From assembly GCF_040183065.1 (NCBI RefSeq), contig NW_027185532.1:1-64000 (forward strand): a DNA stretch of 64,000 nucleotides. Direction: 5' to 3'. Both the position numbers and the translations under genes were made by a program. Numbering within the stretch: position 1 is the stretch's first letter; the number at the start of each line of letters is the position of its first letter. This DNA is from Periplaneta americana. Taxonomy: Eukaryota > Arthropoda > Insecta > Blattodea > Blattidae. Below are positions 33,689-61,787 of this stretch, in pieces. The notes beneath the pieces were generated by a model, which did no database searches, was not told where the DNA came from, and worked only from the letters and a program-made list of their open reading frames with translations.

Positions 33689-33706
33689 CATATAGTCGCG
33701 CTCTGA

Positions 33707-38990: not shown

Positions 38991-39002
38991 AAAATTGTGT
39001 GA

Positions 39003-39246: not shown

Positions 39247-39329
39247 AGCATAGACAGTAAGGAGAGGGAGATAATAAGATCAGTGGTTGTTGCGATCAAG
39301 AGGCAAAAGAGAAATGTCTTACTTACGAC

Positions 39330-40112: not shown

Positions 40113-40127
40113 CAGCAGTGATAACTG

Positions 40128-40174
40128 TGATGATGATGATGATGATGATGATGATAATGATGATGATGATGATG
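40128..40174. repeat. (GAT)n microsatellite
   Basis: About 15 GAT units with one interruption, followed by a purine-rich gaggagg/aagaag stretch. Met- and Ile-rich open frames on either strand are artefacts. Confidence 0.95.
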
Positions 40175-40611
40175 AAGGGAAGAGGAGGAGGAAGAAGAAG
40201 AATATTGATAATGACTGTATGTGAAAGTGAACTTTTTGGAAACCCAACAACTACAGACCTGTGCATCCACTTGAAAGACATTATGTATCGCTTACGGCTC
40301 ACGGCCAGATACGAATATTGTAATAATTGGAGTTGTGATCATACTGTATAGCACACAGAAGAAGAAAAATGTAATTTATTTATGTTTGATATTTTGTGAA
40401 ACCATATACTTTCACCTACCATATCCAATGGAATGCACTGAAATTAAATACAGTACCGAATGATGTTTTTGTAACTGTACGTACAACTGTTGCAGCAACG
40501 TCAGGTAGCCAGCAGATAGCTACGGGGCAGTGAGACAGCACTAGGGAACCCAGGTGCCTAGATAAGTTGCGCGGACAATACTCCTGGTTTCAGTATTAAA
40601 AGTGTCTTTTC

Positions 40612-41990: not shown

Positions 41991-42044
41991 TACAGTAAAA
42001 TAGAATATACATTTTAGCACATATAAATGTGCCACATATTGCTC

Positions 42045-42045
<1 letters not shown>

Positions 42046-42117
<72 letters not shown>
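42046..42117. repeat. (AAT)n microsatellite
   Basis: About 24 perfect aat units. Poly-Ile open frames on both strands are artefacts. Confidence 0.97.
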
Positions 42118-42119
<2 letters not shown>

Positions 42120-42955
42120 TGGTGTGCACAACAAATACAGAAAGGCGAGAATAAGATTATTCCAGTATTCATATTAAACAGTGTAACGTACAAACATTTA
42201 CAATATGGATAATTAATACTATCACTGGGCAATTCCGCAAAGCATAACCTTTGGAAAATATTGTCTGAGCGGTAGTTATGTGTTGTACTGACCACCATGG
42301 GGACTTACAATGCGTAGGCCTACCCATCTTAAGTGTCAGCCCAAAGACAAGTGCACAGCACATAAAATAATCTTCACACGCAATTTTTTATCCACGTCAA
42401 ATGTGAGCTCTGCTAGACATATTTTCACTCAGGGATACCAAGACTCAAAGGGCTTTCGTGGCACAATCAAAATTACTCCATGTCTACCTGTATGCCCGCA
42501 CTCCACACGAATATGAAAATTGAAGTTAAAACTTTTTTCGTCACAATTATATTAATTCTATAATTACTACTTTAATAAATTATATTCAGTTCACGATTTT
42601 TCATTTGTATTGTTTCACAACTTCTCTTATCACTGCATAATTTAATAATATTGAAGTGTCGGTTTGATTAATCTTGATAGTTTAACTTCATCTTGTTCCT
42701 ATTTCGCATCTAGGTATTGCGCAAACTGAAAATTAATTAATGGTATTTGTGAATTTAAAAATGGTGTCGTTCTAATAATCTTATTGTTAATGTAGACAGA
42801 ACTTGTTTATTTTTAGTAATAATGTTAATTTTTCATATTTAGTATTTGAATGACGTAACTTTAATCTTAAATCATCCTGGAAGACTAACTTTCCTGGTGT
42901 CATTTTCGATAAAGATCTTAGTTCTCTTTTCATGTTGATGACCTTTGTAATGCTT
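42118..42955. other. unassigned AT-rich DNA
   Basis: No gene or structured element recognised. Short frames at 42310-42516 (plus) and 42169-42363 (minus) have no supporting features. Confidence 0.5.
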
Positions 42956-42959
42956 TAGA

Positions 42960-43458
42960 CTCAATAAGGGGGGCAAAGGCTAATTGGGATTTCCCAGTCT
43001 CTGATTGGGTCAAAAACCCTGATGGAACTGATATTTAAACCATTGCGGTGAATTTCGGTGAAGTCCGGAGGGCCTAATTAGTCAAATCCACTCTCCTCAC
43101 CTCCACGCTGGGGCCCCCTGGGATCTTCTAAGATGCGAAAGAGAGAGTGGTATGCGGAAAGCAATGGGAAGCTTCCGCATTTATATATATCCCAAGAAGA
43201 TATTGGAATTAAGATTGCATGATGAGTCATTCCCTGGTAAAAAATTCCGGACGTAAACTATCCCCCCAATCGGATGTCCGGGAGGGGGATACTGGGGAAG
43301 GACGATTCATGACGGAGCCTACAGGAGAGAAGAAAAGAAGACCGACTGCTGGAACGCCTCTCGTTTCAGGTGAGTTGGAAAGCTTGAAGGAAGTAATGAA
43401 AAGAAACAGAGTGGATGTGATGAGAATATCAGAAGTGAGGTGGGAAGATAGTGGTTAG
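42960..43458 (+). mobile_element. RTE-like LINE 5' fragment (start of endonuclease)
   Basis: GC-richer segment ending in coding sequence for ELESLKEVMKRNRVDVMRIS followed by EVRWEDSG. This matches the first helix and the E(V/T)RW motif of the AP endonuclease of RTE-type LINEs. The sequence stops right after this motif, so only the 5' untranslated region and the beginning of the ORF remain. Upstream, 43080-43200 has the agag/ggaagcaatggg-type leader often seen in front of these ORFs. Confidence 0.65.
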
Positions 43459-43704
43459 TAAAATGTAGCATGAGTTACAACAACTATTTCAACAATAAAT
43501 CACAAATCACGAATTATATTCCCGATGGCTGTTTACTGCTATAAAGAATGTTCCTAAATTCAATAAATGAACCGAAAAAAAAACTTTATTTTTTGTTTTA
43601 GTATCTTGAAAAGTTCATAAATGTGTCTAAATGCAACGTGAGTTACTGTGGAATGACCCGAATCTAGTATTATTACTACGTATAACTTTTGTAATTGTAT
43701 TAAT

Positions 43705-43765
43705 TGTAGACTGCCTGAGTGGCAGAAAAGGCCTCAGGGTCTAACTCTGCCAGGTAAAATAAAAT
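43705..43765 (+). mobile_element. LINE 3' tail fragment
   Basis: The block gactgcctgagtggc, aaggcctcagggtctaactc, tgccaggtaaaataaaat has the form of the conserved 3' end of an insect non-LTR retrotransposon family. The name of the family is not certain. It is flanked by unassigned DNA. Confidence 0.5.
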
Positions 43766-44034
43766 ATATTATTATTGGTAACAGTAGTAGTAATACATTG
43801 AAATTCTTCGCCAGTGTGTTGAAGAAGAATGTCAGCAGATACAATAGCCAGTAAGATGGTACATGATGCGTTGCTTAGAAGTCTTTATTTTAAATCCTGG
43901 TGGCTATTTTAGCACTATCTACAGAATTATGCATGGTCTTCGTAAGCAAAGATGTAAAAATAAACATTCATTAACTAAAAATTGCCTGTAATGAAAAACA
44001 GAGCGAAAATGATTGCATGTATGCATATAGCTTC

Positions 44035-44345
44035 TAGTCACAAGCTTATAGTTTTGGAAATTTTAAAACTGGAACGTAATCCCTCTCTCTTATAGCATTT
44101 TGGTATTTGCTGGTACATCCAGGCACATAGACACACTATATTTATGAGCCGTATGTAAATAAAAGAATGTGGATAAATTAGGTTTTTTAATAAAAGTAAA
44201 AACTACTTCTATTTCAGTTCATTGAATTTATTTTTGTTTGAGATTTATACGACATGCTTTAGAAGTAATCGTTACTACGTTCTTCAGCTTTTGATTCATT
44301 TTCAAACTTCACTTTCATGATTTACTTATTGTTGATAGTTTGGTA
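44035..44345 (+). repeat. duplicated intron block, copy 1
   Basis: Shares extended similarity with 54670-55260 and 55550-56080: a ttctagtcacaagctt block, a block with gtaaataaaagaat(g/a)(t/a)ggataaatta, a block with tttcagt(t/a)cactgaatttattttt, and one with acgttcttcagctt. In the other two copies these blocks precede a short exon. Here they precede, at a distance, the large repeat exon at 48149, and insertions (hAT, MITE, Tc1) separate them. It marks the upstream edge of the duplicated exon unit. Confidence 0.7.
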
Positions 44346-44654
44346 ACTACAATAAGGTTAAAAAAGAATGGGCCGGTGACAAATGTGTAAATAAGTTCCA
44401 GAAACAGAACAGTGTGCATGTCCGTCTCCTTGAAGTTCCAGTTCACAAGATGACACAATTAAACCATATAAATGTGTTGTATTTTGTTCTAAAATATTTT
44501 ATAAAATAAAACAAAGGGTTGATTCTAGCTGCATCAGAGTCTCTGAAGAGTGAAATAGCAATAATATTGATAAATACTAAATCTATTGAAACGAGGTACA
44601 AAAGTATCGAAAATGAATGAGAAAGCAAATAATACGCTGCATTAAACCATGGGC

Positions 44655-44735
44655 CATTGTACCGTAGGTGATTTAAGCATGGGTCTAAACCTGATAGCAG
44701 TGATTAAAAGAGGTTCGAATCTCCATTAGTCTTAA
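44655..44735 (+). repeat. tRNA-like fragment
   Basis: Contains a B-box-like AGGTTCGAATCTCC at about 44711 preceded by gggtctaaacctgatagc-type sequence. No credible full cloverleaf. It is a SINE or tRNA pseudogene fragment inside the putative intron. Confidence 0.3.
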
Positions 44736-45011
44736 TTTTTTTAAATTATAAATTTACCATAATAAGTTTTTCATAAACACCATTTTCAAAAGTACCAATA
44801 GGCGACATCGCCTGGAAGTCGATTGAATGTTTAGTAAATAGCACAACCTCTCCCCTGAGCAACACTCCTGTCTGTTAATAAAACTGTCTGTATTTATATC
44901 TGATTTATAGTTTTTAAAAATATGTTTAACTACAACATTAAAACATGTTACCATTGTAAACATAGAATTTAGTTTTATTTGTTTTAATAATGGCAATATT
45001 GAAGTGATACT

Positions 45012-46460
45012 CAGTAGCGGCTCGCCGTAAAAAAAATAGGTGAAGTGCTTTTCACATACACAAATGCATAACAGTTTTACCAATATAATGAGTAGGCCTA
45101 CTATTCGTAAACTGCGTACAATTTTAATAGGTCTAGAACACATGCAAACAGGAAAATTAATTTATTTCAGGACTCACTCAATTTCTTGCATACCAAGTCA
45201 ATCCTCCTATCTTTTAAAGCAGTAAACCTGTTCGATGATGTCTTCATAAAATGTCTGACTGAGAGTGGACAGTATATCTCTATGCAAAGCTATGGGGCTA
45301 ATGAGGAAAATCTCTCCTGTGATGTAGCATTCCGAGTGAAATTTTTAATCTCATCAAACAGAAAATATTCTTGCATCGATTTTTTTTAACTTATTTTATA
45401 CAACTTCTCTATTTTCTTAGCACTTTTTAAAACAAAGAACAAATGGAACTGTAGGTCGTCCAGAACTTAAAACATCTTTCTTATCCTTATGTATAAGTCT
45501 ACAAAACAGCATTTCTAATAAATAATAAAACGTGTTATTTCGGGATACATATTTCACACTCATTTATCAATATTTTCTATGTACTGGTATCTAAGTATTT
45601 GTATAATAGCACTAGTGATTAAACATATAATATGCGCTATGATGTAGGATTAATACACTATATATAGACTTATCACTAATATTCGCTAAATACATTAAAT
45701 AATAAGTTAATATATACGTACACAGTATTAAGCTACACGTTTACATTTACGCGCGCGTTAAACTTTCAAATACAAGAGCTTGAACAAAACTGGCAAGCTC
45801 ATGGTAAGAAATAATACACGCTGCGGAAAACAACTTTTAAACTTTGCGAATGTATGTTGGGTGTATTTCTGATAAAATAACATAGAGCTAGCTAATTTAC
45901 CACAGCAGGGGTGGCTGCTTCTACACAAGGAATGAAGATAGTATTCTCGAGTCAGGTAGTACATACTCTAAAATTTCGCAGCCCTTAAACAATAGACTCC
46001 GGCCTTGGAGACCAGCTGCAACCCTACCCTATCGTCAGATCTGCAAACTGGTTACTCCACATACAACAAATCTGACAGTTCTCCGTAACTGAAAGACTCA
46101 GAAATGCACTTCACTCATACAATCTTTCTTTAGTACGTGACGTCACGTTACCATGGAAACCAAGTGCTGTATGAGAATGGGAGCCCAATTAATTTCACCT
46201 TTACAGTATTGTAACTTCCAATAGACACCGCTCGGCGCTCGTAACTGTTGACATTATTCTATTCAGCAGACGGTTACAGATACTATTTATACAACTAAAC
46301 ACTATTCATAACGACTGAAAATAAAACTTTTTTTTTTTTTACTTTAGAAATATGGTACCGGTAATAACTAGAATTAATTATTAGTACGAGATAAAATTGT
46401 GTTTTACGCGTAAATAGGTGAAGTCGCACTTCACCTACTTCACCTGAATAACCGCCCCTG
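45012..46460. mobile_element. non-autonomous hAT-type DNA transposon, 1449 bp
   Basis: Exact 8-bp direct repeat gtgatact at 45004-45011 and 46461-46468. Inside it the ends are cagtagcggctcg on the left and, read inward on the complement, caggggcggttattcagg on the right, so the termini share CAG and GCGG. Both ends lead into aggtgaagt(g/a) sequence, giving further imperfect inverted similarity. An 8-bp duplication with CAG-type ends is the signature of hAT insertion. No transposase-like frame is visible inside; the short frames at 45040-45964 carry no recognisable motif. It would have needed an enzyme supplied by another copy. Confidence 0.85.
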
Positions 46461-46522
46461 GTGATACTGTTTAGCATTCTTCACTTTGTTCGTATTGGAG
46501 TTTAGCTTTCTGTATCGTCCTT

Positions 46523-46765
46523 ATTGAAGGGTTCAGAACCATAATGGGCCAAGAGCCATATAATAAAAACGTAGACAACAAGGGTTAAAACTAAGTTATT
46601 ACAAGAATTCAATGAAAACATATAGCAAGTAATATGAAGTATGCATAATAAAATTAAATTATATCTCAATATTCATTAAACTATGGTATTCACTTAACTT
46701 TAACTCTCGCTTTCTCCGTTTGTAATAAATGGCGCTTGGCCCACTATGGTTCTGAATCCTTCAAT
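46523..46765. mobile_element. candidate MITE with 37-bp terminal inverted repeats
   Basis: Left arm 46523-46559 and right arm 46729-46765 are reverse complements with three mismatches over 37 bp; the core is ttcagaaccata(a/g)tgggccaag. The AT-rich interior is about 170 bp. No clear target duplication was seen by eye. It lies just upstream of the Tc1 remnant but its ends do not look like those of Tc1. Confidence 0.65.
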
Positions 46766-46859
46766 TCCTGGTCGACCGCGCATCTCTGCAAGGTAAGAGG
46801 ACGCAATCTTAATCAGAGAAGTTGAAAACCACTTCTTTCTAAATGCCTTTGATTTGAAG

Positions 46860-47620
46860 ATGGCGTCCAACTTTTCAACCGTGAGGAGACATTTTAGAGA
46901 GTATGGCATAAGGTCTCGTCGAACTGCGACGAAAGAACATTTGAAAATGAATCATGTCGTGGACCTTCTAGCTTACGCTACTATTTGGCAGGACTTCGAC
47001 TGGAGAATGTCATTTTGTCCGACGAGGTAGATGTCTTCAGTAGCACTTATGTCCTGCCCGTGTGTATCGTATGGATGACCACCGATATAATGAACGTTCG
47101 TGGGACGACTTCACAGGCCGGGTCGCGTGAGCGTTGCGATGTCAAACACTGGAGCAGAGCTTCTAGAACGCATGCATGGTCGGTTTACGACAGAAGTGTA
47201 TGAATAAATTTGGCAAATATAATGATTCCTTCTGCCCGAGAATGGTATCCAGACGGAACACTTGTGTTCCAGCAGGAAAACCATCAGATACACACCGCCA
47301 ATCGCATTTAAAGATGGTTTACGAAGAGGTCTGATGTCGACATGCTCGAATGTCCTTGGATTTTTCACCTGATATGAATCCGATTGAAAATGTGTGGCAT
47401 AGATTGAAAATGATCTTACGCTCTAATTCGGCAGAACCACCCTTACGAACAGCAGACAAATTATGGAACAGAGTAGCTACTAGATGCGTGGGAGGAGGTG
47501 GTCACGGATGTAGACCTATTACGTAATCTTTTGGACTCCATGTCGCGCTGAATGAGGGCAGTTGTTGATGCAAGTGGATTATGGAGAAATACTAGTCCCT
47601 ACCACAGGCCTTTTTTTTGT
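46860..47620 (+). pseudogene. Tc1/mariner-type transposase pseudogene
   Basis: Pieces of a Tc1-like transposase occur in order in shifting frames. A helix-turn-helix-like STVRRHFREYGIRSRR is near 46877-46925. VILSDEVDVF with the first catalytic Asp is near 47010. An FQQEN-HQIHTAN segment is near 47270-47305, where Tc1 enzymes have their second acid in a QxDN context; here the residue reads E. SPDMNPIENVWHRLK with the final Glu is near 47370-47415. Stops and frameshifts interrupt every section, so it is dead. Terminal inverted repeats were not located. Confidence 0.8.
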
Positions 47621-48046
47621 TTATATATGTTTTTGTATAATTTTTGTTAATTTATATTTGATGTACTTCTAATGTTTGAGGAGGCAAACAAACTATTAAT
47701 TTTGCATACAGATCAGGTTGTGCCTAACAGTAGCCCACAAATAATAGGATATAATATGTTTGCAACACTTGCATAACCAAGTTTATTAACAAATTCCACT
47801 AACACTTGTCATTAAACATATAAAATAATACAACATAAAAATCATCCCTACCGGGAAGCGAACTTACAACTCTGGTTCCGAAATCAGAAACATTACCCCT
47901 GCATTGTAGACGGATCATTATCAAAGAATCAACCGGAACAAACATCAGAGCATTGCCTTCGAACGAAATGAATTTCCTCGTGTGAACCTGACTTTAAAAA
48001 CTATTTGAACTACCAAGTGTCGGCCCATTCTATTTTAATCCAATTG
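47621..48046. other. intronic DNA, no gene seen
   Basis: AT-rich. A tRNA-like B-box (complement GTTCGCTTCC, near 47858-47867) suggests an old SINE scrap on the minus strand but the rest is not recognisable. Confidence 0.4.
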
Positions 48047-48148
48047 TACATGTTGTCATTTTTACTTAATATGCCCTATTCATCCTAGTCATTAGCTAGA
48101 AATCAGTGTGATAACGACGATTTCAACCAAGAATAATATTGCTTTCAG
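48047..48148 (+). repeat. duplicated intron block preceding exon (copy 1)
   Basis: The stretch ending ...gctttcag contains tacttaatatgcc(c)tattcatcct and attagcta plus ataacgacgattt. This is similar in order and wording to 55299-55399 and 56085-56181, which end in ttgcattttag before the two small exons. It ends with a polypyrimidine tract and AG at 48147-48148, the acceptor of the large exon. Confidence 0.75.
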
Positions 48149-49738
48149 CTGGACCAGCAGAGAAGATGAAGACGACCGCAGCGACGCAGACGAGCGATCA
48201 CTGCTTGCAGTCTGAAGTGATCCAGACGGACGCAACCACTCAAACGAGCGACCACTACTTACAGACCGAAGTGATACAGGCGGACGCAGACACACAGACG
48301 AGCGACCATTACTTACAGACCGAAGTGATACAGACGGACGCAGACACACAGACGAGTGATCGCTACTTACAGACCGAAGTGATACAGACTGACGCAGACA
48401 CACAGACGAGCGACCACTACTTACAGACCGAAGTGATACAGATGGACGCAGGCACACAGACGAGCGACCACTACTTACAGACCGAAGTGATACAGACGGA
48501 CGCAGACACACAGACGAGTGATCGCCACTTACAGACCGAAGTGATACAGACGGACGCAGACACACAGACGAGCGACCGCTACTTACAGACCGAAGTGATA
48601 CAGACGGACGCAGACACACAGACGAGCGACCATTACTTACAGACCGAAGTGATACAGACAGAAGCAGGCACACAGACGAGCGACCACTACTTACAGACCG
48701 AAGTGATACAGACAGACGCAGGCACACAGACGAGCGACCACTACTTACAGACCGAAGTGATACAGACGGACGCAGGCACACAGACGAGCGACCATTACTT
48801 ACAGACAGAAATGATACAGACGGACGCAGACACACAGACGAGCGACCACTACTTACACACCGAAGTGATACAGACGGACGCAGGCACACAGACGAGCGAC
48901 CACTTCTTACGGACCGAAGTGATACAGACGGACGCAGGCACACAGACGAGCGACCACTACTTACAGACCGAAGTGATACAGACGGACGCAAGCACACAGA
49001 CGAGCGACCATTACTTGCAGACCAAAGTCATTCAGACGGACGTAGTCACACAGACGAGCGATCACTACTTACAGACTGAAGTCATCCAGACGGACGAAGA
49101 AACAAAGACGAGCGACCACTACTTACAGACTGAAGTCATCCAGATGGACGCAACATCCGCACAGACGAGCGACCACTACTTACAGACTGAAGTGATACAG
49201 ACGGACAAAGGAACAAAGACGAGCGACCACTACTTACAGACTGAAGTGATACAGACGGACGAAGGAACAAAGACGAGCGACCACTACTTACAGACTGAAG
49301 TGATACGGACGGACAAAGGAACAAAGACGAGCGACCATTACTTACAGACTGAAATCATCCAGATGGACGCAACATCCGCACAGACGAGCGACCACTACTT
49401 AGAGACTGAAGTGATACAGATGGACGAAGAAACAAAGACGAGCGACCACTACTTAGAGACTGAAGTGATACAAACGGACGAAGGAACAAAGACGAGCGAT
49501 CACTACTTACAGACTGAAGTGATACAGACGGACGAAGGAACAAAGACGAGCGACCATTACTTACAGACTGAAATCATCCAGACGGACGCAACATCCGCAC
49601 AGACGAGCGACCACTACTTACAGACTGAAGTGATACAGAGGGACGAAGGAACAAAGACGAGCGACTACTACTTACAGACTGAAGTCATCCAGGAGGACAC
49701 AACATCCGCACAGACAAGCGTATCCAGCGTTGTTGAAG
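48149..49738 (+). CDS. large internal exon: 28 tandem TQT/IQTD repeats (novel protein)
   Basis: Exon of 1590 bp (530 codons), flanked by ctttcag at 48142-48148 and by GTACAG from 49739. It begins with two bases completing a codon and ends with one base of the next, so it is a symmetric phase 1-1 exon. After AGPAEKMKTTAA come 28 repeats (48184-49707), consensus TQTSDHYLQTEVIQTDAD: 24 of 18 residues and four of 19. Units 1-17 keep TQTSD, whereas 18-28 alternate TKTSD and AQTSD. Copies differ by many synonymous changes (GTG ATA versus GTC ATC, CAC/CAT, ACG/ACA), all length changes are whole codons, and there is no stop in 530 codons, which suggests protein-level selection. TQT and IQTD resemble anchor motifs bound by dynein light chain LC8. 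The peptide looks disordered or extended, acidic and Cys-poor. The minus strand is open too, as a shadow. The start codon probably lies in an exon not found; Met near 48166 is the only early alternative. Confidence 0.75.
48184..49707 (+). repeat. 54/57-bp coding minisatellite (28 units)
   Basis: 24 units of 54 bp and four of 57 bp, perfectly in frame. The first 17 units are homogeneous. The last 11 form a second subfamily built from mixed TKTSD and AQTSD units, the 57-bp units carrying an extra Ser codon (DATSAQ or DTTSAQ). This suggests two rounds of local amplification. Confidence 0.95.
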
Positions 49739-49829
49739 GTACAGTAAATTGTTTATATTAGTGGAGAGTATTAATATTTCAAAGGAGGGAAGCAGTAACT
49801 AAATACAATTAATATTTAGAAAAAAAAAT

Positions 49830-51500
49830 TGCCTACTCACCTGTCATTTAAGCTGCAGAACGATTCTCCCGTTTTGTTTGTCTAACTCGTCTATGACGTC
49901 ACCGTAAAACCGAGATTGTTGTGGCAGTTTCTTAATAAATGATTTTTCAATTTCAAAACTGCCAACTGTGAGATTCGCTTTTGGCCTATAGAATTTCTCA
50001 CAAATGCCTTTACTCTCTTGAGAATAGAGAGGAAGTAGTGGTAGGAATTGTTAGTGTAAGTTCACAAAATTTGACAACTGCAGAGTAGGCCGCCTCTAGT
50101 TTATATTCCTTAATACATTTCAACAACTCACTGAAGCTATTGACACTACTCGCACAAATGCTTTCTTTTACACTGAGCAGTACAGATAATTGGAAACGCA
50201 GAGTCACTGCATCAAAGAAACAACATAATTAGCAATAGTTAGTATATCAAAAGCACTTAGGATATGAGCATTGTAATGCTTTGGAAATTTGTGAGTTCCA
50301 GTAATTTTAGATAGTCAACATTACTGAACATTTAAGTTAATTGTTCAAGGTTGTTGTCAATAACTACAAAAAATAGTTTGCGACTTCATGTTTCCAAGCT
50401 ACCGATGTCATGAATATGGACCCTCTTAGCCTATGGTTTGAAATGTCATAATATGTTTTTTATACGATTCCAAATATTCGAAAAGCTGTCCCTTTTGCCT
50501 TCAATAATTGTCTTGGATTCACCAATTTACTGAATGCAATATACAATGTCATTTGTTTTGCTTTGAAGAACACCAAAAAGAATATCTGTGACAGAAAATA
50601 TTGCTCCAAATATATGCGAAAGAAAATTAAAATTGAAATCTGTCTTCAGCAAAGCAAGGTATCCTCTTGAAGAATTAAGAGTTTCTGAATCCCAATTATC
50701 AGTTTATTCAACAATATTTTCGAACAGCTAATGAATGGTTCACGATATTCTAAAACAGTCTATACCAGTCTACTGTTATAATTTCTGTTCGTCCGAGACA
50801 CCTTCGGAAGTATTTTCTTCACTAGTTCATCCAAAGCATGCATTCGCTTAGAAAACAGGGAGGAAAATAAAACAAGGCCATTAAGTAACAGAAAGAATAT
50901 TTATATTTAATCTAAATATTGTCCCAGCCGACTGAAATAGAACTAAATTCAGACGATGAGCAAAGCAATGAACATGGAGAAAACACAGGAAAAATTGTTT
51001 TACTCTAGCCTGCAATCCACTCAAGTGATCAGACGACAGCTCCGCCATCATAACCCTGAGCTACTAACTTTAACCACATTCCAGTTCTTCTACGATTTGA
51101 CACATTATGCTATACAAACCCCCAGCAGTTCTATCTGATTAAACATTCCAAAAACCTTTTTTGAACGTTGCCGTCCTTGGTCGGATATATAACGACTACA
51201 GATAACTGACTGGCATTCCTTACTTCCGTAATTTCATCCAAAAATATAGTTTTGAATGAACTATCAATAATTTACTTCTTAATGTTGTTCAAAGCAACTA
51301 TGGCAACCGAGGAAATTAGGCCATTTTGGATCAAATTAGAAGTACCGGTACTCTGGAAAACTGTAAATGTTTCTAAATGAAGCGGTAAAATTGAATCATA
51401 TTTTGCTCTAAAAAAAAAAAAACAAATCTTTCTTATTAACGAACTCACTTGATTCACTATGTTCTCTAAAGCCAAGTTAGGAAACACGCAATGTCAATTA
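49830..51500 (-). pseudogene. hAT-family transposase remnant (zinc-finger MYM/DUF4371-like)
   Basis: On the minus strand, many short frames give, in order from 51500 downward: scattered N-terminal catalytic-domain pieces; VHCFAHRLNLV near 50972-50940, the conserved C(x)HRLNL segment; a SRLV-TVLEYREPFI piece near 50790-50740; a FGIV/RNKI-like piece near 50460; and the C-terminal dimerisation region near 50120-50010 with CELTLTIPTTTSS, which normally leads into ERSFSALKRIK. At least ten stops and frameshifts are present. The family match is from motif order. It sits in the first intron downstream of the large exon and has no role there that I can see. Confidence 0.6.
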
Positions 51501-51694
51501 AGCGTTTCAATATTTCGCGATTTTTTTAACAATTCATTGTGCTTTAGACCAGCCCTACCCACTGGGGGCATACAGCGAGAGAAGGGGTAGTGCACGGAGC
51601 GTCATACTATTGCTGCCTCCTGAATACGGAGTCGAGATGTGGCGAATGTAGAACTACATTACAATCTGCATCGTGTAGGATAGAGCGTTCGGGG

Positions 51695-52041
51695 TTTAGA
51701 AAATACCATTGGGATATAGCCGCCTTAGCGGAAATCCCCCTCATTGTAATATAATTAAAATAAATTAGTTACGTATTTTCTAACGTATATAAAACCATAT
51801 AAATAAATTTAAATACATTGTAAGCATTGCTTCAAATATAAACGCTTTATATTACTTATAAATAGACTTGGCCTGTATGTTACTTTATTTGTATTTTCAA
51901 TAATCGGATAAATGGAATAGATTTACTTGTGTTGTTTATGTACGTTAGAAAATACGTAAATAACTTATTTAAATTATAGTAGAAAGAGGTGGACATCGCT
52001 AAGAAAACGACTCTACTCTATACCCAATGGCATTTTCAAAA
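51695..52041. mobile_element. candidate foldback/MITE with about 105-bp inverted arms
   Basis: The left arm from 51695 (tttagaaaataccattggg) through 51802 (ttacgtattttctaacgta) is the reverse complement, with mismatches, of 51936-52041 (tacgttagaaaatacgtaa through cccaatggcattttcaaaac). The interior of about 130 bp is AT-rich. No open frame. Long imperfect arms with a short core fit a foldback-type MITE. Confidence 0.65.
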
Positions 52042-52141
52042 CTCTGATCGCTCTAATAATATGGATTCGAACAATGCACATTGGAGAGGAGACGCGCAGA
52101 TTCCTTTACCCAGGATATAGATTGGAAAGAAAAATATTTCT

Positions 52142-52315
52142 GATTGCTTGATTGGCAAACTTACTCGTGTTGAATTGTATAAGCTCGTGTGGCTTACAGC
52201 TGTTTCGGTGCTTCACGCCATCCTCAGAGCTTATACAATTTAACACGAGTAAGTTTGCCAATCAACCAGTCAGTTATATTTAAGTGTTAAAAGTAGTGTA
52301 CGCAAGATTAAAGAT
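52142..52315 (-). mobile_element. 174-bp insertion with candidate hammerhead ribozyme (Penelope-like)
   Basis: Flanked by an exact 13-bp direct repeat gaaaaatatttct (52129-52141 and 52316-52328), so it is a discrete insertion. Inside are 38-bp inverted arms (52149-52186 and 52227-52264, one mismatch) around a 40-nt loop. Read on the minus strand the loop gives CUGAGGA, a short weak stem, GAAAC, then AGCUGUA. This matches the hammerhead core CUGANGA-stem II-GAAA-stem III-UH, and the long arms supply stem I. Penelope-like retroelements are known to carry hammerhead motifs in their terminal repeats and to make variable target duplications. Stem II has a mismatch, so activity is doubtful. No reverse transcriptase is present. 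Confidence 0.6.
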
Positions 52316-52321
52316 GAAAAA

Positions 52322-52472
52322 TATTTCTTTCTTCAAGTAGATGAACGATCGAGATGCCTGATATGTGGTACTTCCGTGGCCAATATAATGTGGAGCGCCA
52401 CTATAAAAAAACATGCTAATACCTATGATTTGGTCGTAGAAGAGGGTCGTACAAAAATGACTCAGGATCTTT
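52322..52472 (+). pseudogene. BED/ZBED-like zinc finger fragment
   Basis: Frame reading FLQVDERSRCLICGTSVA followed by ATIKKHANTYDLVVEEGRTK: CxxC, then a single His before a YDL motif, as in BED-type or related zinc fingers at the N terminus of hAT transposases and ZBED-like genes. The second zinc-binding His is not clear. Coding similarity starts directly after the 13-bp duplication of the preceding insertion and continues before it, so the insertion broke this unit. It is cut off downstream by the SINE at 52478. Confidence 0.5.
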
Positions 52473-52477
52473 TCCTT

Positions 52478-52716
52478 TTAATTGGTTTATTTTACGACGC
52501 TTTATCGACTGCTAAAATTGTCTAGCGTTTGAGTGAGATGATAACGACAGCGAAGTGAGTCCAGGTCCAGCGCCGAAAGTTATCTAACATATGTTCTTAA
52601 TGGGTTGAGGGAAATCCCCGGAAAAATTCTTATCCAGGCAACTTTCCCAACCAGGATTTAAACTCCGGCTCGCTCGTTTCGCGGTCAGACATACTGTTAC
52701 TTCACAACGGTGGACC
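52478..52716 (-). mobile_element. tRNA-derived SINE (minus strand)
   Basis: Read on the minus strand, the head near 52716 has a tRNA-like promoter with tctgaccgcgaaacgagc and a B-box-like GGAGTTTAAATCCTGG (about 52664-52649). It is followed by a body with gttgggaaagttgcctggat and aacccattaagaacatatg, ending in gcgtcgtaaaataaacc. From memory this is an abundant SINE type in cockroach DNA. It interrupts the zinc-finger fragment at 52322. Confidence 0.75.
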
Positions 52717-52758
52717 TGAGGATCTTGAGGAAACCTCCTTAACCGGAACAAATTTAAT

Positions 52759-52809
52759 TAGTAGTAGTGGTGGTGGTCGTGGTGGTGGTGGTGGTAGTAG
52801 TAGTAGTAT

Positions 52810-52890
<81 letters not shown>
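52759..52890. repeat. (AGT)n / (GGT)n microsatellite
   Basis: gtggtggt passing into about 30 agt units. The poly-Leu frame on the minus strand is an artefact. Confidence 0.95.
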
Positions 52891-53124
52891 CAGTAGCAGT
52901 ACGCTGTTATTAGGCCTAATAGTTGCAATATGTTTTATTTCACGTCTCATAGCGCAGACTCACCGTTTGCATCCTTTTTTCTAAAATCAACTTTACGACT
53001 GACACTTTTCCGAATGAGCATTTCTCCAAATGACTATTTCTTTTACGCGTTCACTGTTTACCGAAATTAATAATCCGATACATTATTAGAATAAATAGTG
53101 CCCGTTCTGTGTTACCTACAAGCG

Positions 53125-53880
53125 CCATAAATTGTTGCTCTTTTCATTTGGGGCAGATCCTGTATAGACGCATCCAGGCTGAAGGTCTAACTATAGGAAG
53201 CTTACAATGATATCGAAAACAATGAAGTAAGATTATATACACATATGTTGCTGTCATTAGCATTTGTTCCCCCAGATCATGTAAAACAATTATTCGAAGA
53301 ACTCAGAGAAGATGCGCCTGACACCATACTACCTATATACGTTACTTTGATTTCCATTAGGCCTACATCAGTGGCCGAAGATGTAAAGGCAAAACACGAC
53401 GTGTACCACCGCGCTATAACATCGCATTTGGAATCAATACCAATGAACATTGCAAGTTGAACACCGGACCAACAATGTAAGTGAAGCGCGGCATAATAGA
53501 TTTCAAATGCTCATCAGCAAGAATCATCAATCATCATCCCTTTATACGGCCTTAGCTGAAATTAAAAAAGAACAAGCAGACACTGAGGTCACGATGCAAG
53601 AGTTGAGATTGGAAAGGAAGGTAACAGCACAGCCAAGAAAGCAGTACAAAACAGAATAATGGCAATAACACTGGAATACAAAACACAGAAGGAAGAAACC
53701 CGCAGTCTTCAGTACTTAAGAAGAATTGGGTACAATTTTAGCTTCTGGAGAGGCATGAAATACAGGCATTCTGTGCTCGTTGATCATGTCCCATCTTTCA
53801 AAAAAACAAGCTATAGTCATACTCTGTTTTTATACATCTTCCAACTTACTCCACTCGAATTTATCTTTAACCACTTATAA
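53125..53880 (+). pseudogene. MULE-type transposase C-terminal remnant
   Basis: Pieces in order: GQILYRRIQAEGL near 53152; LLSLAFVPPDHVKQLFEELR at 53245-53305; a frame change near 53450; then RTNNVSEARHNRFQMLISKN near 53465; SLYTALAEIKKEQADTE near 53540; and a C-terminal LQYLRRIGYNFSFW near 53706-53750. The RTNNxxE-WHxRF and EIKKEQADTE blocks are characteristic of Mutator-like (MULE, often FLYWCH-associated) transposases of insects. The segment between the FVPPDHV and RTNN blocks is shortened. The catalytic DDE region is missing. Confidence 0.75.
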
Positions 53881-54665
53881 ATATTAAATTCAACCTCCAG
53901 AATAGTGCAATAATTCAGTATGTTCTAAATATGAGTTTTTAACAGAGCATAAACTGTAATTTACACTGAAAACGACACAAAGAACACTTATAGCTTCGAC
54001 ATACTTCGCGTATTCGTCACTGGAAGCAAGCTTTCAAAATGATAGTGGGGTGGTCTGACTGCTGGGGTTGCGAGGGAAACAACTGTGTCCTGCCCGTTGC
54101 GCGCTGCGTACAGTTTGAAACAAAAGTAACAACACTATGAAATAATAATTTCGTGAAAAATGAAAATAACTTTATTGTTAAATCATAAACATCAGAAACA
54201 ACGAAGACAATGACAACGACATTTTGATATATTTTAATAGCCTACATCAATTTCTTACACATCCTCAAAATGAACCAACAAAAAGCACATAAACATAGCA
54301 TTTACATTAGTGATCCTCCACTAACGATCTTACATTTTTGAGTATCTAACTTGTTACATAGTTCATCAAACGAATTAATTTTGTTTATTTGTAACCACTT
54401 AATTCGTTACGGTACTGTTCAAAGTTCTTAACGTTGTGCCTTCTCATTGCAGGGTTCATTCTTGTTGAGTAATACGATTGTATAATCGTTCCGGTAAGCC
54501 TGGAAATATCCTTGGCATATCACTAAGTTTTAAGAAACAGCTATTTCGGAGTATTTCTGCACATTTCTTTCTCTGTCTCTAGAATCATGTAGTAGGTACA
54601 AACGTTTACTTCTAAGTGTTTATACACACAACTGAATGCTTTGTTGGCGTGAAGACATTTCGTGG
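53881..54665. other. intronic AT-rich DNA, no gene seen
   Basis: No recognisable coding, RNA or repeat structure. It leads into the duplicated intron block that precedes exon 55400-55483. Confidence 0.5.
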
Positions 54666-55298
54666 TATATTTTCTAGTCACAAGCTTCTCCTTTTCAGAT
54701 GGAAATTTGAAAACTGTATAACTGCTCTCAAGTAGAGCACTCTGGTAGGCCTAATTGCTGGTACACTGGCGTTCGAAGAAAGTGTTCGATAATTTGTTCG
54801 TGTAAGTGTGGCTTTTTTAGTCATTATTCCTATGAATAGATGGCGAAGATAAGTCAGTGTTGCCAATAGTACATAACTATACCCGTATTATGAAATTCAA
54901 CACTTCATCCCCCTTGAATGATTGTAAAAATAAAAAAACACTACATTTAGCGGAACCGCTATTACCGTCAATTATGAAAATAAATTGTACTTGATCTATA
55001 TCAATATTTTTGCAAACACTTTTTTACCCGTTCCTGTAATAGATTCACCTATTGAAAAACTAGCAGAACTTGTTCAAAGTTTCTCAATTTGTTATATATT
55101 TGGTTCTGACCTATCCGTGGTTAGGACGTTCGCTCACCCTTATGATCAGAAAATTGTAGGCCAGATACCTTTGAACGCCAGTGTACACGCAGACACACAG
55201 GCACTCTACATTTAGAAGCCATCTGTAAAAAAAGTATAAGGATAAATTAATTTCATTTTTTAAATAGAATTAAATTAATAGTTTGATGACGTACATAT

Positions 55299-55399
55299 TG
55301 TCTACTTACTTGATAGGCTACCTATTTATCCTGTTCATTACATTAGCTAACAATTACTTCATTACGACGATTTAAACTCAGAATTATCTTGCATTTTAG
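55299..55399 (+). repeat. duplicated intron block preceding exon (copy 2)
   Basis: tctacttacttgataggcta, cctatttatcctgttcatta, cattagctaacaattacttc, then attacgacgatttaaa and ttgcattttag. Nearly identical in order to 56085-56181 and more distantly to 48047-48148. It ends in the acceptor AG (55398-55399). Confidence 0.85.
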
Positions 55400-55483
55400 A
55401 TGTACCCAAAGCGACAGAGAAGGTGATGACGTCGAGAGAACGCTTCCTGGAAAGAATAAGACGTAACAGAGTTAACAGTGAAG
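55400..55483 (+). CDS. small phase 1-1 exon of the repeat-protein gene (28 codons)
   Basis: 84 bp between ttgcattttag and GTACAGTAATTG. In phase 1, joined to the single G left by the previous exon, it reads D-VPKATEKVMTSRERFLER followed by IRRNRVNSE, free of stops; in phase 0 it hits TGA after eight codons. The product is basic and helical-looking. Its start (VPKATEKV) is related to the start of the large exon (GPAEKMK), consistent with origin by exon duplication. The intron following it keeps about 50 bp of near identity to the intron after 56298, beginning at the donor. Confidence 0.65.
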
Positions 55484-55535
55484 GTACAGTAATTGTTTAC
55501 AGCCTGAAGTGGTGGCGCTTCCAGCTACGCACAAG
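55484..55535 (+). repeat. duplicated intron start (copy of 56299-56350)
   Basis: gtacagtaattgtttacagc and ctgaagtggtggcgcttcca, then gct and cacaagttc, recur after the exon ending at 56298 with a few differences. The conserved stretch covers the donor site and the first 50 bases of intron. After the large exon only the donor and the first dozen bases (gtacagtaaattgttta) are still alike. Confidence 0.85.
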
Positions 55536-56084
55536 TTCTATTTTTACTGTAAATAAAAGAATAAGGATAAATTAATTTCATTTTTGAAATAAAATTAAAA
55601 AATTGGTTTAATTTCAGTACACTGAATTTATTTTTCTTTATGGGAACACTCAACTTAAAAATTAGAGAAAAAGTGTCATCGAAATGAAAAATTAAATTTC
55701 TGCACTAATTTACGTGACAGAACTAAATCAATACGCAAAATTCTTCCCCTATTCATTGAGAAGTCACAGTCAAATGCACAAAGCCAAAAAATAAAAAATG
55801 ATAATTAAAAGTGATATTTCAATTAATGATTGATTAAAAATAGAAATATTTTTTTTATTTTGAAAAGTATTGGATCTAATGAGCTGAGATTTTGCATGTT
55901 AATTTTCCATGTGTATATTAAATTTTTTCTCCAAATTTGAAAAAGATTGGTCAAATAGGAAAAAAGTTCCAAAATATAGCCGAGTGTCCCCTTAAGGCTA
56001 AACATGCGTTAGAAGTAACTTTACTACGCACTTCAACTTCTTATTCCTTTCCAAAATTCACTTTAATAACTTACTTATATTGTC

Positions 56085-56181
56085 TACTTACTTAATATGC
56101 TACCTATTTATCCTGTTCATTACATTAGCTAACAAACACTTTATTACGACTATTTAAATTCAGAATTTTGTTGCATTTTAG
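56085..56181 (+). repeat. duplicated intron block preceding exon (copy 3)
   Basis: Counterpart of 55299-55399, with the same order of blocks and the same ttgcattttag acceptor (AG at 56180-56181). Confidence 0.85.
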
Positions 56182-56298
56182 ATTTACGCAGAGCGAGAGA
56201 GAGGCAAATGATGGAAAGACTCAAAATGACAGGTCACTACCCGTACTACCCGCACCAGAAAAGAATGACACACTTAGACAGACGTCCCAAAGAAGAAG
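56182..56298 (+). CDS. small phase 1-1 exon of the repeat-protein gene (39 codons)
   Basis: 117 bp between an AG acceptor at 56180-56181 and a GTAAAG donor from 56299. In phase 1, with G from the previous exon, it reads D-LRRARERQMMERLKMTGHY then PYYPHQKRMTHLDRRPKEE, without stops. It is strongly basic, with an Arg/Glu-rich helix followed by a Tyr/Pro patch (YPYYPHQ). Flanking intron sequence shows it is a sister of exon 55400-55483, although the two peptides have diverged except in the Arg/Glu-rich first half. Length is a multiple of three, so both small exons could be skipped without changing frame. Confidence 0.65.
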
Positions 56299-58110
56299 GT
56301 AAAGTAATTGTTTATATCCTGAAGTGGTGGCGCTTCCAGCTGCTCACAAGTTCGATTGCTGGTAGCAAAGAGGAGATTTATGGAGTAGAGCCATTCAGCC
56401 AGTTAGTCCAAACCGCTTGTTAAATTTGTCGCAGTTCGTAGAACCTGCTGTTAAATATTTGAATTAAGTTCTTTACAGAAAGGAAGAATATTAATTTAAA
56501 CACAATTCTCTAGCTTTTTAATGTGGCAATAAACATAATGCTAAAATAAACGATAAAATAAACTCGAAACGAATTATTATTACATTCTTGTTTCCTATTC
56601 AAGTGTGTAGACAGTCAGGACAGGAATATGATATTATGCCTGCAGCCTTGAAACACACTTTCGCTTATTTTGGCTGTGGTTTACCCCTATACTTCCCCAT
56701 TTCAGTGATAATACCGCATACACAATAATGAAACGTAGTAAGTTATTCAAAAAAATAATTAAAAAAAGTAAATGGATTGTTGAGCACATTAATAAAGTAC
56801 TTCGTTTTCCATTTGTAATATTTCTCTTACAATTTTTTATTCCAATCCAATTAATTATTTTTTCATTAAGGGTATTAACAATACTGAATGCTTTATGGCC
56901 GCTGGGTCGGTAGTAGCCAGCATCATATAAGCTGCGCTTATATTTCAATCTAAATCCCAGAACGAAATCATTGTAGTGCAATGAAACGTTAAAGCGGTCG
57001 GTCAAGTCTTCTTGGTAGTGGTGGTTGGTTGATGTTTCGAAAAGTAAAGTGTTAAATTGGTAAATACGTAGTACATCACCCATACTTTTTTAGAAAAACC
57101 CTGCTGAATTTTTGGTTTACGAAAAATATTCATCTTTATGGGAAAACTCACTCCCGCCACTCCATTAGAACAACGTATTATATTTTTCGTGAACCAAAAC
57201 ACAATACGGCATTGCTACGAAGTGGTGCTGAAATACTGTACATGTTAAATTAACTTAATGTGCGGTAACAGTAGCCTAGATTGTGTGTGTGCAGACGCAT
57301 CTTCGGATAGTATAGTATTATGTGGAGCATAGGGCTGCAACAAGCAAGGCTAGGTAGAACTACATCTTAGACAGGTAAGATAATATGATACATATGTTTG
57401 CAGATGTAGCGAGGTAACCTTCCGCCGCTCTGATGTCGCCCAGTGCACAGACGAAGTGTCGGAAGTCTACCCCCTTCTTCCTGACGAGAGTCAAGGATTT
57501 TAAATTATACATATAAGAGCATGTTGATTTGTAGTTTTACTTTATTTGTAGCTGCTTATTATTTCATATTTCTATTGAGGTTATGAAATTTGCGGATATT
57601 TTTTAACACGTATATTAGTTGTATTTTCCCAGTTTTTTCCACATAGACGTGGATCACCGTCATACCCATAGAAAGCTTGTTCAGCCAGGTGCGATACTTA
57701 AACTGATAAGTGAAAGACCTAGCCCGATAGATGAAAAGTGATGTGAAGGATTGACTAGAGTTTAAAAGGAGTCGAGTTGTGATTCTTTAAATTGGCACTT
57801 CACTTGGAGGGACTACCCAAACATACAAACAAACATAAGGCCAGAGATTATATACGAAGTCTTCATAATGAAACAAGACATTTGCAAAAACATGCACAAT
57901 CCAATTTAACTAGAGTTTAATATCATTAAAAAATGAGACTATGTGAGGTATATATCACTTTGCACCAAGATCCATATGTGCACTTCATATCTTTGTTTAC
58001 TTTACTTTTTCTGGTTACAAAACACAGCCAACAGCGTTTTAAACTTATCTGTTGACGTACTTTGTTGCCTACAAGAAGATTTTTGAATGCTGAAAATTAT
58101 CGTTTGACAT
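56299..58110 (+). other. intron before the last exon
   Basis: AT-rich. A minus-strand open frame at 57083-56634 begins with ATG but has no recognisable motif. A short inverted repeat (ttttggttYacgaaaaatat at about 57111-57131 and 57177-57199) could form a hairpin. Nothing else supported. Confidence 0.5.
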
Positions 58111-58114
58111 CACA

Positions 58115-58366
58115 TGAAGGGTCCAGGGAAGAAACCAGGTAAGTCACTTTTTCCTTGAAACCTGTTTTCTTCGCTGAAAGAGTTGACTTACCTATCTCTT
58201 ATCATGTACACCAAAAATTTGAAGGCAAATAAACCCATGACTAATCTGTTTCTTTTCCTGTTTCATACCTCTAAACGATAGTCCTTTCCATAGAGAATCT
58301 AATGGCACCTCGAACTCCATCTCGACAAAAAAGTGACTTACCTGGTTTTTTCCCTGGACCCTTCAC
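58115..58366. mobile_element. candidate MITE with about 36-bp terminal inverted repeats
   Basis: The left arm from 58115 (tgaagggtccagggaagaaa, ccaggtaagtcacttttt) is matched by the reverse complement of the right arm at 58329-58366, with about one mismatch. The interior of about 180 bp has no open frame. acat flanks both ends and may be part of a short target duplication. Note that both arms contain ccaggtaagt, a strong splice-donor-like string. Confidence 0.65.
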
Positions 58367-58370
58367 ATGA

Positions 58371-59159
58371 AGTTATTCACAAAATTTTAGTGTATAAATT
58401 GTAATTTTTGTAAGATTCAGGTTCAAGCAAGCCACATTTTCTCGTTATTTTTTTACATTGAGCACAGTGCTGTAACCATGGTATTTATTTCGACAGTACC
58501 ATGTCTAATTTTGTCTTCACAACCTCATCAGTGGACCCTTGTGCGTGACAAATATCTTCCGTTAGGATTCTACTGCTTCGAATAATTTTTCAGGAGGCAT
58601 CACGAACAGACTCACACAATCCGCACACATAATACAACAAATCACGCACTCGACACTCAGACTGCTAGCATGCCAACAGACAGAGAAGGTAGTTATGGAG
58701 TTTAAGTCAGGTACGGAGGAGTATTTGGAAATCCTTCTTGTGCAGTAGGCCAAAGGCAGAGTGTGGTGTTGTTTTGGCTTTTCCACACTTACACTTCATA
58801 TATGCAAGAATTTTCCGCCATCAAGTAGTCTACAGTTAACAAAAAAAATATATATATTATGTGCTGACAAACAATCCAAAATATATTTTTACGAAATATG
58901 CTAATTTGAGGTTTTCTGACACAAAATCCTAGAAATATACAACATTGTATGCTCAATAGTCTTTTATATAGAACGCCAGAAATGTGCAAACATATGTACG
59001 AGTAACTTTAAATATTCGTCATTACAGACGTTCAAAAATGTATAAAATGTTTTTGCATGGATTGCTTACGAATCCTCGCCCTATTAATATAACATTCAAT
59101 GAAAATCAGTGAATGCAATGACACATGCTTAATGATCAATTTCGTTTTGCTCTTTGCAG
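58371..59159. other. intron, no further feature seen
   Basis: Intronic sequence ending in a good polypyrimidine/AG acceptor (ttcgttttgctctttgcag, AG 59158-59159). The minus-strand frames at 58562-58989 carry nothing recognisable. Confidence 0.5.
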
Positions 59160-59299
59160 AAATACGGGTTGTCAACTATGAAGAAGAAGAAGAACTCGAA
59201 CCAGTGAAGGTCAAAAAGCGTAATTTCTTCATTAGATTATTCTTTCGGATTTGTAGTTGCTGTTGTCCTTGTTTGTGCAAGAGAAAGAGAAGATTTTAA
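59160..59299 (+). CDS. terminal exon: acidic patch and Cys-rich basic C terminus
   Basis: Begins after the AG at 59158-59159 and ends with TAA at 59297-59299. In phase 1 with G from the previous exon it reads E-IRVVNYEEEEELEPVKVKK followed by RNFFIRLFFRICSCCCPC and LCKRKRRF, then stop. In order: a Glu-rich patch, a basic hinge, an amphipathic aromatic/Arg segment, six cysteines within nine residues, and a basic end. Such Cys clusters beside basic and hydrophobic residues are typical of S-palmitoylated, peripheral membrane proteins, so I infer a membrane anchor. No CaaX prenylation box. The phase agrees with all three upstream exons. An AATAAA about 106 bp downstream fits a 3' end here. Confidence 0.65.
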
Positions 59300-59404: not shown

Positions 59405-59410
59405 AATAAA
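59405..59410 (+). terminator. candidate polyadenylation signal AATAAA
   Basis: AATAAA in tcttaataaagctgcactg, about 106 bp after the stop of the terminal exon. It would give a short 3' untranslated region. No GT-rich downstream element is obvious. Confidence 0.4.
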
Positions 59411-59940: not shown

Positions 59941-59944
59941 TAAT

Positions 59945-61787
59945 GGCTTGGCTTGGCTTGGCTTGGCTTGGCTTGGCTTGGCTTGGCTTGGCTTGGCTTG
60001 GCTTGGCTTGGCTTGGCTTGGCTTGGCTTGGCTTGGCTTGGCTTGGCTTGGCTTGGCTTGGCTTGGCTTGGCTTGGCTTGGCTTGGCTTGGCTTGGCTTG
60101 GCTTGGCTTGGCTTGGCTTGGCTTGGCTTGGCTTGGCTTGGCTTGGCTTGGCTTGGCTTGGCTTGGCTTGGCTTGGCTTGGCTTGGCTTGGCTTGGCTTG
60201 GCTTGGCTTGGCTTGGCTTGGCTTGGCTTGGCTTGGCTTGGCTTGGCTTGGCTTGGCTTGGCTTGGCTTGGCTTGGCTTGGCTTGGCTTGGCTTGGCTTG
60301 GCTTGGCTTGGCTTGGCTTGGCTTGGCTTGGCTTGGCTTGGCTTGGCTTGGCTTGGCTTGGCTTGGCTTGGCTTGGCTTGGCTTGGCTTGGCTTGGCTTG
60401 GCTTGGCTTGGCTTGGCTTGGCTTGGCTTGGCTTGGCTTGGCTTGGCTTGGCTTGGCTTGGCTTGGCTTGGCTTGGCTTGGCTTGGCTTGGCTTGGCTTG
60501 GCTTGGCTTGGCTTGGCTTGGCTTGGCTTGGCTTGGCTTGGCTTGGCTTGGCTTGGCTTGGCTTGGCTTGGCTTGGCTTGGCTTGGCTTGGCTTGGCTTG
60601 GCTTGGCTTGGCTTGGCTTGGCTTGGCTTGGCTTGGCTTGGCTTGGCTTGGCTTGGCTTGGCTTGGCTTGGCTTGGCTTGGCTTGGCTTGGCTTGGCTTG
60701 GCTTGGCTTGGCTTGGCTTGGCTTGGCTTGGCTTGGCTTGGCTTGGCTTGGCTTGGCTTGGCTTGGCTTGGCTTGGCTTGGCTTGGCTTGGCTTGGCTTG
60801 GCTTGGCTTGGCTTGGCTTGGCTTGGCTTGGCTTGGCTTGGCTTGGCTTGGCTTGGCTTGGCTTGGCTTGGCTTGGCTTGGCTTGGCTTGGCTTGGCTTG
60901 GCTTGGCTTGGCTTGGCTTGGCTTGGCTTGGCTTGGCTTGGCTTGGCTTGGCTTGGCTTGGCTTGGCTTGGCTTGGCTTGGCTTGGCTTGGCTTGGCTTG
61001 GCTTGGCTTGGCTTGGCTTGGCTTGGCTTGGCTTGGCTTGGCTTGGCTTGGCTTGGCTTGGCTTGGCTTGGCTTGGCTTGGCTTGGCTTGGCTTGGCTTG
61101 GCTTGGCTTGGCTTGGCTTGGCTTGGCTTGGCTTGGCTTGGCTTGGCTTGGCTTGGCTTGGCTTGGCTTGGCTTGGCTTGGCTTGGCTTGGCTTGGCTTG
61201 GCTTGGCTTGGCTTGGCTTGGCTTGGCTTGGCTTGGCTTGGCTTGGCTTGGCTTGGCTTGGCTTGGCTTGGCTTGGCTTGGCTTGGCTTGGCTTGGCTTG
61301 GCTTGGCTTGGCTTGGCTTGGCTTGGCTTGGCTTGGCTTGGCTTGGCTTGGCTTGGCTTGGCTTGGCTTGGCTTGGCTTGGCTTGGCTTGGCTTGGCTTG
61401 GCTTGGCTTGGCTTGGCTTGGCTTGGCTTGGCTTGGCTTGGCTTGGCTTGGCTTGGCTTGGCTTGGCTTGGCTTGGCTTGGCTTGGCTTGGCTTGGCTTG
61501 GCTTGGCTTGGCTTGGCTTGGCTTGGCTTGGCTTGGCTTGGCTTGGCTTGGCTTGGCTTGGCTTGGCTTGGCTTGGCTTGGCTTGGCTTGGCTTGGCTTG
61601 GCTTGGCTTGGCTTGGCTTGGCTTGGCTTGGCTTGGCTTGGCTTGGCTTGGCTTGGCTTGGCTTGGCTTGGCTTGGCTTGGCTTGGCTTGGCTTGGCTTG
61701 GCTTGGCTTGGCTTGGCTTGGCTTGGCTTGGCTTGGCTTGGCTTGGCTTGGCTTGGCTTGGCTTGGCTTGGCTTGGCTTGGCTTGGC
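59945..61787. repeat. perfect (CTTGG)n pentanucleotide array, 1.84 kb
   Basis: About 368 consecutive ggctt units with no visible substitution or indel across 1843 bp. Because the unit is 5 bp and contains no stop in any frame on either strand, frames stay open on both strands (AWLGL on plus, PSQAK on minus). These are not proteins. It is not the insect telomere repeat (TTAGG). Its right end merges directly with the 3' side of a minus-strand tRNA-like sequence whose last bases are tgccaagcc. Confidence 0.98.

Follow-up and report, generated by a model that had tools for sequence, protein, structure and literature searches.

The window analysed in this work, a stretch of 64,000 nucleotides of Periplaneta americana (positions 1 to 64,000, forward strand, of the contig NW_027185532.1, hereafter C51), harbors on its plus strand a gene whose largest exon is an array of 28 near-identical peptide units and whose last exon encodes a cysteine-rich tail. 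As far as can be judged from sequence, it is a real spliced protein-coding gene and its model is good. The reading that we prefer, with a probability of roughly 0.4, is that the gene belongs to a recently amplified family, the product of which is a polyvalent peptide scaffold tied to a membrane. According to this reading, each 18-residue unit would present a partner with T-S-D..L....I-Q-x-D, a short linear motif, the C-terminal basic, aromatic and Cys-rich tail would tie the string of units to a membrane by S-acylation, and many copies of the partner would thereby gather at that membrane. The dynein light chain LC8 may be this partner, through the IQTD site and with no more than about one copy per unit.

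Gene model and repeat array

The features of the gene are the following:

Exon A: 48149..49738, plus strand; array of 28 units with the consensus TSDHYLQTEVIQTDAGTQ, phase 1-1.
In-frame ATG in exon A: 48166..48168, plus strand; a possible start codon if the upstream exons are non-coding.
Exon B: 55400..55483, plus strand; 84 bp, phase 1-1, paralogous to the 5' end of exon A and to exon C, fast changing.
Exon C: 56182..56298, plus strand; 117 bp, phase 1-1, duplicate of the exon B unit.
Exon D: 59160..59299, plus strand; acidic run, basic/aromatic stretch, CSCCCPCLC cluster, KRKRRF and stop.
AATAAA poly(A) signal: 59405..59410, plus strand; 106 bases past the gene.
Intron sequence upstream of exon A: 44026..44329, plus strand; matches intron pieces around exons B and C.

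Joined together, the four exons form an open frame of 642 codons, closed only by the terminal stop; all the internal junctions are in phase 1 and are bordered by AG acceptors and GT donors. The exon coordinates, the splice borders, the open joined frame and the AATAAA that follows the stop, starting at 59405, had all been proposed by a first-pass annotation of the window and were all recovered.

The same annotation described 28 repeats carrying both TQT and IQTD. The number was correct, since 28 TSD-headed units were counted, with 24 of the 27 spacings of 18 residues and three of 19; the presence of both motifs in every unit did not hold, exon A containing 17 TQT and 19 IQTD together with eight TKT and four AQT. 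The array is strongly acidic (net charge -84).

In order to describe the unit over the 13 copies retrieved from the genome (see below), we used a unit finder with residue classes fixed at D3, L6, I11, Q12 and D14 and free at T1 and S2. The copies harbor 28, 34, 36, 26, 20, 25, 29, 37, 30, 30, 26, 34 and 25 units, respectively, for a total of 380, from which one stop-bearing unit is excluded because the finder is blind to a stop at position 9; counting by TSD only gives lower numbers for some copies. The two free positions are nearly invariant (T1 in 377 and S2 in 376 of the 380 units), and among the 294 units of 18 residues obtained by splitting at TSD the most conserved residues are L6 (294), T17 (292), I11 (291), Q12 and D14 (289 each).

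The variation among units is mainly synonymous in one frame. For the 24 units of 18 residues of the window (out of 28), reading in the reported frame yields a ratio of nonsynonymous to synonymous variation (pN/pS) of 0.34. The remaining forward frames give 0.72 and 2.75, and the three reverse ones 0.69, 1.04 and 1.21. Moreover, over the 380 units and 14 codon columns, the variants present in at least five units comprise 12 of the 24 possible synonymous changes vs. 13 of the 95 missense ones (Fisher P = 0.0003); when no minimum frequency is imposed, the figures become 18/24 and 45/95 (P = 0.02). Since the units are related by duplication, these P values serve as guides only. The prevalence of synonymous variation in a single frame implies that the array is coding and constrained, and the comparison as a whole shows, at the sequence level, a repeat unit under purifying constraint with a conserved reading frame.

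A coding and functional array might also be structural, that is, a beta-solenoid or fibre-like element with a core of Leu, Ile, Val and Tyr and no role for LC8, as might occur in proteins of the cuticle, the egg coat, sperm or a secreted matrix. Leu6 and Ile11 are indeed the best conserved hydrophobic residues, and AlphaFold2 (AF2), run without an alignment on 12 units, returned a regular all-beta model (mean predicted local distance difference test score, pLDDT, 71.7; predicted template modelling score, pTM, 0.55). However, AF2 is reported, in passages of PMC11795689, to over-predict beta-solenoids for perfect repeats; the pLDDT is only moderate, with no residue reaching 90, the period is interrupted by the 19-residue units, and the charge of the array is very negative. 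We regard a structural array as doubtful.

The annotation recognised no homologue, in agreement with our searches, which retrieved no convincing relative from Pfam or the Protein Data Bank (PDB). When the whole protein was compared with Pfam, only VQ scored above its gathering score (35.9 vs. 20.5), no stretch being significant alone, and VAD1-2 remained below it (19.6 vs. 26, six stretches); these matches, as well as those with AMG1_III, DUF5371 and SnoaL_4, were judged to be driven by the repeats. Probing PDB with a three-unit peptide gave 27 matches, nearly all with variants of the green fluorescent protein (best E 0.066), which were taken as chance, as was the match with the Pierce1 chain (E 1.1). 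No match was found for the tail in PDB, nor for the tail or for the product of exons B, C and D in Pfam at E up to 10.

Distribution and divergence of the copies

The genome searched consists of 3,231,669,367 bases in 91 contigs, the window being the start of C51 (136,984 bases); the assembly, apparently PAMFEO1_priV1, is described in a part of PMC12774602 as 3.23 Gb in 91 scaffolds, 17 of them chromosome-sized. The array query retrieved 13 loci at high identity: two on C51, four on C9, five on C1 and two on C12. Exon C gave exactly 13 matches genome-wide, and a nucleotide query spanning exons B and C found the same 13 loci, the two C12 copies and two others in split pieces; the tail exon D was found in 12 of the 13 copies. 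The two regions with weaker array matches that were inspected, at C10:10.45 Mb and C1:17.54 Mb, are low-complexity repeats open in several frames and not relatives. One scan of viral contigs revealed no relative of the family.

The borders of exon A were delimited in all 13 copies, one of them requiring that a changed base before the acceptor AG be allowed. The length of the exon is always a multiple of three and its head, GPAEKMK(T/M)TAATQTSD, is kept in all the copies, as are the AG/GT borders of exons B and C; the array is open in 12 copies out of 13. In the copy at C1:121441 the array is interrupted by a stop and the tail exon was not retrieved, so that this copy is likely a pseudogene lying beside intact ones, as judged from its sequence. 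This copy would also fit a passively amplified, decaying repeat locus without present function, and a part of PMC12774602 reports that Hi-C and RNA from digestive tissues generally gave poor coverage of unplaced scaffolds. Nevertheless, the 12 open arrays, the 13 exon A lengths, the splice borders of exons B and C and the synonymous bias in one frame only, which already disfavours it, make a decaying locus very improbable.

The sequences of exons B and C are nearly the same in the window copy and in the C9 copies lying near 39.41 and 39.44 Mb, whose exon A is longer (1701 bases vs. 1590). This suggests that C51 might belong to a cluster of this kind, either as an unplaced or as an allelic fragment; in this case, the distinct loci of the family could be 11 to 13. 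According to these data, the thirteen copies form, as far as their sequences tell, a recently amplified family clustered on three large scaffolds and on the unplaced contig C51. The family is perhaps lineage-restricted. The literature on LC8, with few subscription journals covered, yielded no paper describing such a repeat gene family, which looks like an undescribed, orphan one.

The flanks of exons B and C align over 296 columns at 74%, and those of exons A and B over 143 columns at 72%, in both cases with the acceptors and the first codons included. These similarities, together with that of the intron sequence at 44026-44329, point to the origin of exons A, B and C from one duplicated, symmetric phase-1 exon unit; we infer that the array probably expanded inside exon A.

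Exons B and C change faster than their surroundings. Between the window copy and one of the two copies on C12 (C12b), 17 of the 201 sites of exons B and C differ vs. 13 of 902 in the flanking introns (P = 2e-6); with the other (C12a) the values are 17/201 and 14/900 (P = 4e-6). In both comparisons, exon B alone accounts for 12 differences over 84 sites. Introns were compared by piecewise local alignment, excluding the mobile-element stretch, dropping local matches below 90% and taking each base from its best-scoring match. An earlier joint alignment had given 7/374 for the introns of C12b and 39/374 for those of C12a, the latter count being discarded as a misalignment around an insertion of about 1 kb. 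Over exons B, C and D, the window copy differs from C12a by 20 nonsynonymous and no synonymous changes, and from C12b by 19 and one, respectively. An exon change exceeding that of introns suggests either diversifying selection or gene conversion; the pattern points to the former as the probable cause in exons B and C.

This aspect suggests a reproductive or other genetic conflict, and the family might be, in the first place, a sperm, seminal, ovarian or perhaps drive-related one, in which what varies is the length of the array itself, the precise partner being of lesser importance. The recent, clustered copies, the 12/84 changes of exon B vs. 13/902 and 14/900 in introns, and the range of 20 to 37 units are in favor of this scenario. 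On the other hand, clusters beside satellite DNA can amplify passively, and among the 11 copies outside C12 the excess in exons is marginal (14/201 variable sites vs. 12/375 in introns, P = 0.06). We consider it rather unlikely as the leading explanation. The cockroach family resembles the known class of lineage-specific, tandemly amplified insect families in its recent clustered copies, in its exon duplication and in exons outpacing introns; unlike in those fast-evolving families, purifying constraint acts on its principal part, the repeat array. A set of about 13 genes whose linker exons change fast would also be expected if the availability of dynein light chain were contested in the germ line, a possibility that we hold to be decidedly unlikely.

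Concerning the sequence surrounding the gene, a remnant resembling a Tc1/mariner transposase (by eye) lies at 46780-47640, in the intron upstream of exon A, and an interspersed element of about 360 bp, with at least 27 genomic copies at 94-96%, lies between exons B and C (55638-55996). A broken long interspersed nuclear element (LINE) with RVT_1 and zf-RVT matches occupies 33707-38165, and related pieces are found near C51:91.8-92.6 and 124-127 kb. Two arrays of a 20-bp minisatellite, with the same unit in opposite orientation, cover positions 4-12530 (12.5 kb) and 15174-30898 (15.7 kb) and are the source of most long open reading frames (ORFs) of the window. In the C12 cluster region the same motif is likewise present as two blocks of opposite orientation. 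On C51 it recurs at the far end, the interval C51:31.5-136 kb being devoid of exact copies. Downstream of the gene, a perfect (TGGCT)n array of 1.84 kb (59944-61787, 100% match) begins about 645 bases after the stop codon, and a 113-bp tandem repeat (97% matches) extends from 63535 to the end of the window at 64000 and on to C51:64760. Outside the window, the regions C51:93-105 kb and 114-124 kb harbor a set of ORFs that by eye resembles a Polinton/Maverick-type element and that includes a metalloproteinase-like ORF at C51:93602-95104.

LC8 as a candidate partner and the probable membrane tail

According to the rules set out in PMC6607443, LC8 sites have Q at position 0, a mid-size T, V or I at -1 and +1, no large hydrophobic residue at -4, a large residue at -3, no bulky aromatic one at -2, and preferably P, D or E at +2; the same paper lists an LQT-bearing PLK1 peptide as a non-binder. 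The first-pass annotation had taken both TQT and IQTD as LC8 motifs. The IQTD half of this proposal is tenable, the QTEVIQTD site agreeing with all the published position rules; the TQT half fares worse, since TDAGTQTS misses the preferences at -3 (Ala) and +2 (Ser) and is more degenerate. LQTE, with Leu at -1 and Tyr at -2, was rejected by the same rules.

Sites complying with the rules number 20 in the window copy and from 12 to 26 across the 13 copies; among shuffled units, 3.7% contain a fully compliant site and 30% some anchor. In the 380 units the IQ site has I in 377, Q in 374 and T at +1 in 281, the finder favouring I and Q. Since IQTD and TQT have two residues of their footprints in common, each unit would likely accommodate no more than about one LC8 groove. 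Matches with the dynein light chain family PF01221 above the cut-off were found only on C14 (in two exon pieces) and on C11; LC8 was apparently not amplified in step with the family. On these sequence grounds LC8 is, tentatively, the best named candidate partner, via the IQTD site. The role as a motor adaptor, also put forward in the annotation as a possibility, gained no support.

Known multivalent clients of LC8 include, according to a portion of PMC5963919, ASCIZ/ATMIN (11 sites in human, seven in fly), Nup159 (five), and Chica and Bassoon (three each). The cockroach proteins share with these clients a low-complexity chain in which short Q-centred motifs follow one another, with an IQTD that agrees with the position rules. 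They differ from them in having near-identical units of 18 residues, 20 to 37 per protein, in the Cys-rich tail, in the 13 gene copies and in the frequent loss of TQT, no sequence relation to the clients being evident. If LC8 does bind, the array would be one of the longest natural LC8 arrays.

The product of exon D consists of an acidic run, the stretch KVKKRNFFIRLFFRI, the cluster CSCCCPCLC and KRKRRF. The six Cys of the cluster, between basic residues on either side, are unchanged in all 12 tail exons, the C12 copies varying in the K after CLC (M or N) and in the I of FFIR (V). S-acylated tails and the CYSTM module are familiar Cys-cluster membrane anchors, and the cockroach tail resembles them in its C-terminal run of Cys beside basic and aromatic residues; unlike CYSTM anchors, it lacks a Pfam match, and its acylation is putative. 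The tail is probably S-acylated and plausibly a membrane tether, judging from its composition. Of the membrane tail of the first-pass annotation, the Cys cluster is upheld, the tethering being plausible.

Weight of the evidence and meaning for the family

Several observations weigh against a membrane-tied scaffold for LC8, or against parts of it. Firstly, the motifs are not uniformly kept: the Thr at +1 of the IQ site, a position that LC8 buries, is replaced in 99 of the 380 units (by M in 67, A in 18, E in 10, R in three and I in one), and the TQ site reads TQT in 246, TKT in 87 and AQT in 38; the invariant T-S-D and Leu of the unit are left unexplained by LC8. Secondly, the maximum hydropathy of the tail over 19 residues is 1.47, just under the value of 1.6 usual for membrane-spanning segments, so that anchoring of the tail is not certain; S-acylation and basic charge would be a likelier anchor than a membrane span. 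Thirdly, the excess of changes in exons is marginal outside C12, as reported above, and gene conversion could also yield an excess limited to exons. Taking exons B and C from the 13 copies and exon D from 11 of them, we counted 29 nonsynonymous and four synonymous changes (P = 0.21 vs. the site expectation), with one further amino-acid change in the twelfth tail exon; since the synonymous deficit alone is not significant, the case for selection on exons B to D rests on the comparison with introns. Finally, a scan for ATG-to-phase-1-donor exons in the window from 31501 to 48148 (donor score of at least 7 of 9, candidates kept in three other copies) revealed no convincing upstream first exon. 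The two candidates that passed were both rejected: 43219-43369 resembles, by eye, a piece of a LINE endonuclease ORF, and 44649-44667 comprises six codons only.

The stronger findings of this analysis are the 13-copy family, the exon duplication and the fast-changing exons, none of which was within reach of the first-pass annotation. The gene structure would also illustrate how, among several duplicated exons, a single one can host the growth of a coding minisatellite. If the genes are real and expressed, a common household insect would possess an orphan multigene family that combines a constrained motif array of variable length with rapidly changing linker exons and an anchor of the lipid type; this family would offer a natural test bed for the evolution of polyvalent motif strings.

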